A DNA stretch of 64,000 nt from Phenylobacterium sp. (lineage in GTDB: Bacteria > Pseudomonadota > Alphaproteobacteria > Caulobacterales > Caulobacteraceae), in the NCBI RefSeq assembly GCF_025351295.1, contig NZ_JANXWD010000138.1, positions 1 through 64,000 on the forward strand, written 5' to 3'. Every line of letters starts with the position of its first letter. Within the stretch, counting starts at the first letter, position 1. This document shows positions 18,603-47,342 of this stretch, piece after piece. The position numbers and the translations under genes are program-made. The notes below the pieces were generated by a model. That model saw nothing but the letters and a program-made list of their open reading frames with translations, was not told where the DNA came from and made no database searches.

Positions 18603-18617
18603 GAACACCTAGAGAAC
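18603..18617. promoter_or_regulatory. LexA (SOS) box upstream of lexA
   Basis: GAAC-acctaga-GAAC, the reverse complement of the alphaproteobacterial consensus GTTC-N7-GTTC; downstream of TTGACA (18589-18594) and 40 bp before the lexA ATG. Confidence 0.88.
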
Positions 18618-18656
18618 ATCGGCAAGCGTTTGCGCTTTGTTCTTCGAGGTTCCGAG

Positions 18657-19346
18657 ATGCTCACCCGCAAGCAACATGAACTGCTGATGTTCATCCATGA
18701 ACGGATCAAGGAAAGCGGCGTCTCGCCGTCCTTCGACGAGATGAAGGAGGCCCTGGACCTGGCGTCGAAGTCCGGCATCCACCGCCTGATCACCGCCCTG
18801 GAGGAACGCGGCTTTCTGCGTCGCCTGCCGCACCGCGCCCGGGCGCTGGAGGTGATCAAGCTGCCGGAACAGGCGACCGCCGCCGCCCCGCCGCGCGGCC
18901 GCGCGCCCTTCAAGCCGCAACTGGTCGACGGCGGGCCCACCCAGCCGGCCGCCGCCAACGACAGCCGCGACCTGCCGATCCTCGGCAAGATCGCCGCCGG
19001 CACGCCGATCGAGGCGATCCAGCAGGAACGCGACCGCATGCCGGTGCCGGAGAGCATCCTGGGGGCCGGCGAGCACTTCGTCCTGGAGATCGCCGGGGAC
19101 TCGATGATCAACGCCGGCATCCTCGACGGCGACTTCGTGGTCATCAAGCGGACCGACAGCGCCGTCTCCGGCGACATCGTCGTGGCCCTCGTCAACGGCG
19201 AGGAGGCCACCCTGAAGCGCCTGCGCAAGAAGGGCGCCTCCATCGCGCTGGAGGCCGCCAACCCGGCCTATGAGACCCGCATCTTCGGCCCTGACCAGGT
19301 AGCCGTGCAAGGCAAGCTGGTGGGGCTCATCCGCCGCTATCACTAG
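18657..19346 (+). CDS. lexA: LexA repressor
   Basis: [67 protein letters not shown]24 domain [22 protein letters not shown]. Confidence 0.97.
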
Positions 19347-40481: not shown

Positions 40482-43949
<3,468 letters not shown>

Positions 43950-43954
43950 GGCCG

Positions 43955-44044
43955 TCAGCCCAGATGCATGGCCACGGCGCAGACCATCCAGACAAAGCTC
44001 GCCACCGACGCAAAGGCCAGTGATTCCCGGGCCAGACGAACCAT
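43955..44044 (-). CDS. sidA: 29-aa single-TM microprotein, candidate SidA (SOS-induced cell-division inhibitor) ortholog
   Basis: [29 protein letters not shown]-stop; AGGAGG 9 nt before this ATG (an in-frame ATG at 44053 abuts the SD); LexA box 44 bp upstream; directly upstream of dnaE. Confidence 0.75.
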
Positions 44045-44087
44045 CTCGCGCATCCTCCTGTGCGGGCCCTGTGGAGAACCCAAAGTC

Positions 44088-44102
44088 GTTCCGTTTTCGT
44101 TC
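44088..44102. promoter_or_regulatory. LexA (SOS) box upstream of the sidA-like microgene and dnaE
   Basis: GTTC-cgttttc-GTTC, perfect GTTC-N7-GTTC; overlaps -10 ATAAGA (44101-44106, minus) of a TTGACT (44124-44129)-N17-ATAAGA promoter. Confidence 0.87.
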
Positions 44103-44422
44103 TTATTCCCCTTTTGTTCTGACAGTCAACCCCGTCGATGCGTGGGCCCCGGCGGCGAAGGTGATCCATTGTGCAGGCTCGGACGCCTCTTCTTGTTACG
44201 CCCATTCCGAGACGGCCCGCCCTTGGACTGGTTGCAATGGGAGCACGCCCGCTTCAGTCGACCCGGTTGCCGGGCCTTGGGAGAAGCCGCGCCTGTCTAC
44301 AGCGCCGACCTTCCCTTGTTGGGCGAACGGCATTGCGCAATGGTAAACGCGGTATTTGCGCTGAATCCTCGGGGCAAGCAGAACGTCCCACGCATTAGGA
44401 TCGTTTAGGGAAGGAACGAGAC

Positions 44423-45256
44423 GTGAAACTGAAAACGCTACTCCTGGCGGCGTCGTTCGTATCGACGGCGGCCATCGCAATATCCCTCGCGACGTCGGCA
44501 CAGGCCGGATCGGTCGCCGTCTACGTCGGCTATTTCGATGGTCTGCGCGGCGGCATCGATTTCCCGAACCCTGCCGGCGTGGGCGGAACATTCACGACGG
44601 GCGGACACACCTACACGATCAGCAATCTGCTCGGCGATGTGAACGACGCCATGGATGCGGGCGGTGTCATGCTGCTCAACACGGGCGCGACCTCCGTCGT
44701 GGTCAACAACCTGGATGTCAGCAACGTAGGCGCCGCTCACGCAGACTTTCAGCTCTGGACGGGTGGCGGCGCGCTGCAACTGGGTAGCGGCCTCAACCTG
44801 GCCGCCGGCTCTGGCGCCATTTTCACGTCAACCGCGAACTACAACTTCGACACCAGCGATTTCTCCGGTGCAGCCCTCCAGGCTGGCTTCGATCCCGATA
44901 CGAATAACTGCAGCGTCGGGGCGATCGCTTCGACCTTAGCGTGTACCTCCACAGCGGCTGCCGTGACCTTCACCATCGATGGCATCGCCTCGGCGCTTGG
45001 CGATACCGGCCACGTGCTCGATACGGGCGGCTATGACACCGCGAACTACAGTCACATCCACACCGGTGGTGGCGGGGTGCCGGTGTCCAACACCAACGAG
45101 TCCCTCAACTGGCGGCTGATCGGCACGACGGGCGTCAACGATCCGGGCGGCACTGGGGGCGTGCCGGAGCCTGCGAGCTGGGCGTTGATGCTGGTGGGCT
45201 TTGGCGGCCTGGGCGCCATGCTGCGCCGCCGGCGGCGGGTCGCGCTCACCGCTTGA
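44423..45256 (+). CDS. PEPxxWA-CTERM sorting-domain exported protein
   Basis: Signal peptide MKLKTLLLAASFVSTAAIAISLATSAQAG; C-terminus GGVPEPASWALMLVGFGGLGAMLRRRRR. Confidence 0.9.
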   Translation: MKLKTLLLAASFVSTAAIAISLATSAQAGSVAVYVGYFDGLRGGIDFPNPAGVGGTFTTGGHTYTISNLLGDVNDAMDAGGVMLLNTGATSVVVNNLDVSNVGAAHADFQLWTGGGALQLGSGLNLAAGSGAIFTSTANYNFDTSDFSGAALQAGFDPDTNNCSVGAIASTLACTSTAAAVTFTIDGIASALGDTGHVLDTGGYDTANYSHIHTGGGGVPVSNTNESLNWRLIGTTGVNDPGGTGGVPEPASWALMLVGFGGLGAMLRRRRRVALTA

Positions 45257-45367: not shown

Positions 45368-46054
45368 CTACCGCCGCTGTTCTTCCAGCCGCCCGTCCTT
45401 CAGCGCGAAAACCCGGTCCATGTGGCGGGCGAGTTCCAGGTTGTGGGTGGCGACCAGGGCGGCGACACCCTCGCTACGCGCCAGGCCGTAGAGGTTCTCG
45501 AACACGGCGGTCGAGGTGGTGGGATCGAGGTTGCCGGTGGGCTCGTCGGCCAGCAGCAGGCGGGGCGAATTGGCCAGGGCCCGGGCCACCGCCACCCGCT
45601 GCTGCTCGCCGCCGGAGAGCTGGGCCGGCTGGTGGTCGAGCCGTTCCGCCAGGCCCAGTTCGGTGAGCAGGGTCCGCGCCCGGTCCCAGGCCGCCTTGCG
45701 CCCCTGGCCGGCGATCATCAGCGGCAGGGCCACGTTGTCGAGAGCCGAGAACTCCGGCAGCAGGTGGTGGAACTGGTAGACGAAGCCGATGGTGGCCAGC
45801 CGCACCCGCGTGCGCTCCCGCTCGGCCAGGTTCGAGCAGTCGGTCCCCAGGATCGATATCCGCCCGGCGTTCGGGTGCTCCAGCAGGCCGGCGGCATGCA
45901 GCAAGCTGGACTTGCCCGACCCCGACGGCCCGATCAGGCCGACGATCTCGCCCGGCATCACGTCCAGGTCGACGCCCCGCAGCACGGTCAGCGACCCCGC
46001 CGCGGTGACATAGGTCCGCTCCAGGCCGCGGATCGACAGCACCGGCTCACTCAT
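45368..46054 (-). CDS. lolD: Lipoprotein-releasing ABC transporter ATP-binding protein
   Basis: [23 protein letters not shown]...[33 protein letters not shown]. Confidence 0.93.
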
Positions 46055-47342
46055 AGCGCAGCGCCTCGACCGGATCGAGACGCGAGGCCCGCCAGGCCGG
46101 CGGCAGGGTGGCCAGGAAGCTGACCGCCAGCGACCAGAACACGATCAGCGCCACCTCGGCCCAATCGGTCTTCGCCGGCACATGCGACAGGTAATAGACA
46201 TCCGAGGAGAACACCGCCTGGCCGGTGACATATTCCACGACGTCCTGGATCTGGTCGATATAGGTGCAGAACAGGATGCCCACCGCCAGGCCCGCCGCGG
46301 TGCCCAGCACGCCGACGCTGGCGCCGGCCATGAAGAAGATCCGCAGGATGGACCCCTGCCCCGCCCCCATGGTCCGCAGGATGGCGATGTCGCGGCCCTT
46401 GTTTTTCACCAGCATGATCAGGCCGGAGATGATGTTCAGCGCCGCGATGGCCACCACCAGCATCAGGATCAGCCGCATCACCGCCCGCTCGACCTTCAGT
46501 GCCCCCCAGAACGAGGAGTCCCGCTGGGTCCAGTCGCTGACCACGGCGGCCGGCCCGGCGGCCCGCGCGATCGGCGCCTTCATGCGCTCAGCGTGGTCGG
46601 GATCGGCGACCCGCACCTCGATGGCGTCGGCGGTGTCCTCGCGGCCAAAGAACAGCTGCGCCTGCGGCAGGGCCATGTAGATATAGGCTTGGTCGTACTG
46701 GCTCATACCGACACTGAACGTCGCGCCGACCGTGTATGGCTTCTGCAGCGGCGTGCCGCCGAACGCGGTGCTGCCGCCGGAGGGCGAAATCAGGATCAGG
46801 GTGTCGCCGACGCCCACGCCCAGCTGCTGGGCCAAGCGTTCGCCCACCACCACCACGTCGCCGCCATAATCGCCAGCCCCGAAACCCCTGAGATTTCCGT
46901 GCTTGATGTTGCCGGAGACCAGCGGCGTGGCGCGGAGGTCGCCCGCGCCGATGCCACGCACGATGGCGCCGGTGATCTGGCTCGGGCCGATGGCGATCGC
47001 CTGGGCCTCGACGATCGGCGCGGCCTGCAGTACGCTCGGAATCTTGAGAATCCGCGCCGCCGCGGCGTCGCGCTCGGACCCGTCCAGCACCCCGCCGGTG
47101 ACGAACACATGGCCCTGGAAGCCCAGGATCCGGCTCAGCAGCTCGGTGCGGAAGCCGTTCATCACCGACATCACGATGATCAGCGTCGCCACCGCCACCA
47201 TGATGCCGACGAACGAGATCAGCGAGATCAGCGCCACGCCGCCCTGGCTTCGCTTGGCGCGCAGGTAGCGCCCGGCCAGCATCCGTTCCCACAGTCCGAA
47301 GGGCGGCGCGCGCCCGCCGATCACCGCGCCCGGTTGGCTCAC
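46047..47342 (-). CDS. lolC: Lipoprotein-releasing ABC transporter permease LolC/LolE
   Basis: [51 protein letters not shown]; FtsX-like C-terminal TMs. Confidence 0.93.

Follow-up and report, generated by a model that had tools for sequence, protein, structure and literature searches.

The window, a stretch of 64,000 nucleotides of Phenylobacterium sp. DNA, carries on its minus strand a gene of 29 codons with stop codon TGA (43955..44044), assigned here to sidA, followed directly by dnaE (40482..43949, minus strand; model NF004226, 1461.7 bits), which encodes the alpha subunit of the replicative DNA polymerase III. The named dnaE loci closest to that of the window belong to Phenylobacterium. 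The sequence-only reading had described the small frame as a 29-residue micro-ORF with one transmembrane helix and an AGGAGG motif 9 nt upstream, and it was retrieved as such, with the Shine-Dalgarno sequence at 44054..44059 (minus strand). The product has a short charged N-terminus and a predicted single-pass hydrophobic helix, the mean Kyte-Doolittle value of residues 9-25 being about 2.2 when worked out by hand. Since an in-frame ATG at 44053 directly adjoins the Shine-Dalgarno sequence and is absent from relatives, the start codon at 44044 is the likelier one. Among 17 Phenylobacterium sequences, pN/pS was 0.29 in the sidA frame versus 1.5 and 2.2 in the remaining two frames, and the corresponding values for sidA were 0.21 in Brevundimonas and 0.30 in a Caulobacter-like genus. 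Judged by these ratios, the amino-acid sequence of sidA is under purifying selection.

Upstream of the gene, a -35-like TTGACT (44124..44129, minus strand) and a -10-like ATAAGA (44101..44106, minus strand) form a TTGACT-N17-ATAAGA promoter candidate spanning 44129-44101, and motif scanning placed a perfect LexA box, GAACGAAAACGGAAC, at 44088..44102 (minus strand; GTTC-N7-GTTC on the plus strand), overlapping the -10 by 2 nt, just as had been claimed. A second box with one mismatch, GAACAAAAGGGGAAT (44105..44119, minus strand), had escaped the sequence-only reading; it was identified by motif scan and from relatives, 17 nt upstream of the perfect box, and the pair occupies the -35/-10 spacer plus the -10/start region. 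The TTGAC lies 10 nt ahead of the first box and is kept in relatives. A generic sigma-70 scan passed over this promoter, as the final T is missing from ATAAGA. The window also encodes the expected repressor, 25 kb away from sidA: lexA (18657..19343, stop codon excluded, plus strand; TIGR00498, 181.8 bits for a cut-off of 110.95) has its own perfect box, GAACACCTAGAGAAC (18603..18617, plus strand), behind a TTGACA in the same layout as in the sidA promoter, the box and gene together covering 18603-19343. These are the only two perfect GAAC-N7-GAAC sites of the whole window, one before sidA and one before lexA, and the genome-wide count of such sites was 107 versus 28 for the reversed control. 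With two boxes and lexA present, sidA of the window is putatively LexA-repressed and damage-induced.

The window peptide scored 61.4 bits (E 5.6e-17) against the curated SidA equivalog NF033228.1 (div_inhib_SidA; cut-off 35). A match to this model was likewise obtained in the control genome of Caulobacter vibrioides, and exactly one of 14 controls, presumably this one, exceeded the cut-off. C. crescentus SidA is a 29-residue inner-membrane peptide, and deletion of lexA causes filamentation because of sidA (PMC12700426). The likeness to the window extends to length, to the one hydrophobic helix, to the LexA boxes and to dnaE directly downstream. Seventeen of the 29 residues are identical to SidA of genome G096, itself encoded directly before dnaE; MipZ of G096 shows 100% identity to the protein sequence in the solved MipZ structures, and genome G077 has the same MipZ and a SidA with two differences. 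Some features differ: the likely dnaE start is located about 20-40 nt past the sidA stop in several genomes of genus Caulobacter versus 5 nt in the window, and several Caulobacter loci have two imperfect boxes where the proximal one is perfect in the window. The candidate orthology put forward in the sequence-only reading is therefore borne out by the match to NF033228, the 29-residue length, the LexA boxes and the dnaE synteny in Caulobacter genomes, G096 included, an adjacency that this reading had likewise given. Taken alone, sidA of the window is an orthologue of the ordinary kind.

FtsW/FtsN binding and a division block suppressed by ftsW or ftsI mutations are known only for C. crescentus SidA (PMC4211646), which AlphaFold 3 models of low confidence place on FtsW helix 7 (PMC13396833). 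Induction, membrane location, FtsW/FtsN contact and division block are carried over from this species to Phenylobacterium SidA, and conservation of the peptide supports this transfer. In the undamaged cell, LexA bound to the two adjacent boxes would mask the promoter from its spacer to the -10/start region, keeping sidA off. Upon damage, RecA would trigger LexA cleavage and the 29-residue SidA would be made. It would then insert in the inner membrane as one helix and hold the FtsW/FtsI/FtsN septal wall-synthesis complex inactive, preventing division before DNA repair. YneA, SosA, ChiZ, DivS and SulA are, like SidA, SOS-induced division inhibitors; their sequences and loci are unrelated to SidA, and SulA is soluble and targets FtsZ. 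Alphaproteobacteria besides Caulobacter are likewise not known to possess SulA. YneA also acts on FtsW, as SidA does (PMC13396833). DidA of C. crescentus resembles SidA as a damage-induced one-helix division inhibitor of the FtsW/I/N complex (PMC4211646), but is 71 residues long, SOS-independent (DriD) and encoded at a different locus.

The distribution of the gene within Caulobacteraceae was surveyed with a SidA profile built from ten peptides. Matches were obtained in 242 of 249 genomes and in all 22 sampled genera (E <= 1), most E-values being below 1e-7 and the weak ones largely belonging to genus g14. The synteny proposed by the sequence-only reading held across the sampled loci, where sidA was found directly before dnaE except in two cases, both chance matches. 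Paired boxes, mostly 17-18 nt apart, were present at nearly all Caulobacteraceae sidA loci, and TTGAC occurred near a box, mostly 7-11 nt ahead, in 32 of 57 loci versus 3.7% at random positions. The most divergent SidA of the family (MVSTLHNLLSFASVAGFVWVVCQLSMLVG; loci L136, L137 and L139, genus g14) has no conserved arginine/acid N-terminus, yet is double-boxed and precedes dnaE. In one metagenome-assembled genome (YX1bin14, L012), the region upstream of dnaE contained neither a sidA-like ORF nor a LexA box, and the gene may have been lost there. Some candidates were discarded: a SidA-like ORF of 37 residues elsewhere in genome G022 had no LexA box and lay inside another coding sequence, and weak matches 2-3 kb upstream of dnaE, in frames of 430-510 residues, were chance hits to helices of LolC/E-type permeases.

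Outside Caulobacteraceae, genome searches with single sequences and with the Caulobacteraceae profile returned almost nothing at E <= 0.005, the one promising match (in G826) being a micro-ORF before dnaE, and synteny and operator were thus needed as guides. Because boxes before dnaE had been seen in Parvibaculum, Phreatobacter and others, dnaE upstream regions were collected from 235 non-Caulobacteraceae alphaproteobacterial loci (66 named, 169 unnamed), a sample that may include a few duplicated genomes and is biased toward dnaE sequences most like that of the window. A perfect GAAC-N7-GAAC box was found in 45 of the 235 regions. In 43 of these it was followed by a one-helix micro-ORF, defined by an ATG at most 90 nt from the box, a Shine-Dalgarno match of at least 4 bases, a frame of 25-47 residues with one hydrophobic stretch, and an end before dnaE; dinucleotide shuffles of the post-box sequence gave 0.9%. 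When one mismatch was allowed, 49 loci had a boxed micro-ORF, of which at least one (L019) is due to chance, versus 0-2 in ten shuffled sets. Of the 256 four-base direct repeats at N7, GAAC-N7-GAAC was the commonest in the first 146 unnamed loci (28 loci versus 2 for the reversed control). The boxes of L019 and L273 lay inside the lolD coding sequence and were rejected as chance occurrences; likewise, GTTC-oriented boxes were present at 17 loci outside Caulobacteraceae, only four of them with a micro-ORF, and some of these had already been found via GAAC boxes.

Presence of the boxed micro-ORF was mostly all-or-none by family (f4, 6/6; f5, 6/6; f46, 4/4; f125, 3/3; f8, 3/3; f127, 2/2; f86, 2/2; f9, 4/5; f14, 4/5, the fifth having a GTG start), and many alphaproteobacterial families in the 235-locus survey had none before dnaE. 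Families f3-f5 are sister families of Caulobacteraceae in the same order, and named bearers belong to Sneathiellales (L014), Parvibaculum (L018, L020 and L027) and Phreatobacter (L022). The downstream gene was the replicative dnaE and not the SOS polymerase gene dnaE2 in all eight cases tested. TTGAC was found within 22 nt of the box, mostly 9-12 nt ahead, in 30 of the 43 outside loci (3.7% at random positions), and the distance from box to ATG ranged from 12 to 64 nt. At the level of sequence motifs, a putative promoter architecture of TTGAC followed by the box is common to Caulobacteraceae sidA and to the outside micro-ORFs.

The relationship of these outside peptides to SidA was evaluated by profile comparison. 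None of nine outside representatives matched NF033228 at its cut-off of 35 bits, and the representatives tested were covered by no NCBIfam or Pfam family. However, an HMM built from Caulobacteraceae only, run against 4887 six-frame upstream fragments (562 of them hydrophobic), gave 12 matches at E <= 1, all of them SOS micro-ORFs; 11 had been flagged automatically and the twelfth was a GTG-start copy in L180. Upon iteration, only further dnaE-upstream micro-ORFs joined. When SidA was aligned with 24 of the outside peptides by hhalign, the probability was 96.6% and the score 39.4 over 29 columns, versus decoy maxima of 14.4 (60 column-shuffled) and 18.1 (60 helix-shuffled). As a few of the 24 had been chosen by HMM, the comparison was repeated with all 41 box-selected peptides (94.7%, score 30.1); restriction to those from outside the order gave 93.9% and 28.95, and none of forty decoy sets, assembled from small hydrophobic ORFs of this DNA, scored above 13.3. 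Conversely, a profile built from outside peptides only and run over whole genomes recovered Brevundimonas sidA in G024 and G002 (E 1e-5 to 2e-5), as well as members absent from its build in G906, G587, G793, G701 and G524, in all five of which a perfect box starts 32-57 nt ahead of the match.

Homology to SidA was thus detectable at the profile level for the pooled outside micro-ORFs, and was clear singly for f4, f8, f14 and the pool f130/f120/f62/f174/f23, whereas f5, f9, f46, f125 and f127/f86 taken singly scored 7-15 with hhalign, which falls within or close to the range of the decoys. It is conceivable that the window ORF is a SidA orthologue while the SOS micro-ORFs outside the family are convergent and not homologous. 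The peptides of f5, f9, f46, f125 and f127/f86, individually without significant similarity to SidA, could include some analogues, and SOS division inhibitors have arisen repeatedly in bacteria (YneA, SosA, ChiZ, DivS; PMC4211646). General convergence nevertheless appears unlikely to us, given the same place, the same promoter layout and the family-coherent presence of these genes, a profile-profile score exceeding all decoys and reciprocal HMM matches. In roughly half of the families under study, common descent with SidA is well supported by sequence, and SidA appears to be a single branch of a more ancient SOS micro-gene that Alphaproteobacteria carry between lolD and dnaE. We infer that the outside micro-ORFs may be division inhibitors sharing their function with SidA.

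Another possible explanation is that the box mainly confers SOS control on dnaE, the peptide being secondary. A box and promoter do lie upstream of dnaE, and a search of the window revealed no terminator between sidA and dnaE; this and the 5-nt gap make SOS read-through from the sidA promoter into dnaE plausible, as the sequence-only reading had suggested. However, the peptide is conserved and not the box alone, the spacing from box to ATG is short (12-64 nt), dnaE as an essential gene has to be expressed at a basal level, and the main text of a 2025 Caulobacter SOS study makes no mention of dnaE, so that primary control of dnaE seems quite improbable. The reading of the ORF as a leader peptide or an upstream ORF without function, only setting dnaE translation or transcription by way of a coupling that the 5-nt distance would permit, can hardly be credited in view of the conserved amino acids (pN/pS 0.29) and the match to the curated SidA model, of gaps to dnaE of tens to hundreds of nt in Brevundimonas and outside Caulobacteraceae, and of two f130 genomes in which the peptide stays beside lolD with dnaE out of reach, which argues against a mere dnaE leader role. 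In these two genomes (G734 and G817; L368 and L375), the SidA-like micro-gene (MQIWLKDTLALVSLFALTWMGMAWIAVLDLT; position 1500, match strand) directly follows lolD, has an imperfect box (GAACAAATAGCGTAC) and is followed by an NtrY-like sensor kinase gene instead of dnaE.

We are highly confident that the window ORF encodes SidA, a predicted LexA-controlled membrane peptide that would arrest division, and that SidA represents one branch, that of Caulobacteraceae, of a more ancient family in Alphaproteobacteria. The new part is the wider micro-ORF family outside Caulobacteraceae, whose reach far beyond Caulobacterales the sequence-only reading had missed; the literature searched yielded no description of SidA relatives from outside Caulobacter and showed SidA to have been studied only in that genus. 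It is probable that SidA is no Caulobacter invention but a branch of an ancestral alphaproteobacterial checkpoint, in which a LexA-controlled one-helix micro-protein of 25-47 residues, with the signature [KR][DE]xxAL before the helix and encoded at the lolD-dnaE junction, would respond to DNA damage by arresting division via the septal wall-synthesis complex, and which occurs without annotation in taxa that include Parvibaculum, Sneathiellales, Phreatobacter and families that are sisters to Caulobacteraceae. With its box and its constant site, the micro-gene, annotated by no family model, represents a ready candidate for SOS division arrest in dozens of genomes, and position combined with operator can find very small genes missed by profile searches alone.

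On the other side of sidA in the window, an ORF of 277 residues on the opposite strand (44423-45256) lies between sidA-dnaE and a lolC-lolD-like pair (minus strand, 46047-47342 and 45368-46054); its product begins with a stretch resembling a signal sequence and ends in a PEP-CTERM-like tail (VPEPASWALMLVGFGGLGAMLRRRR). The gene upstream of sidA-dnaE varies among Phenylobacterium relatives.
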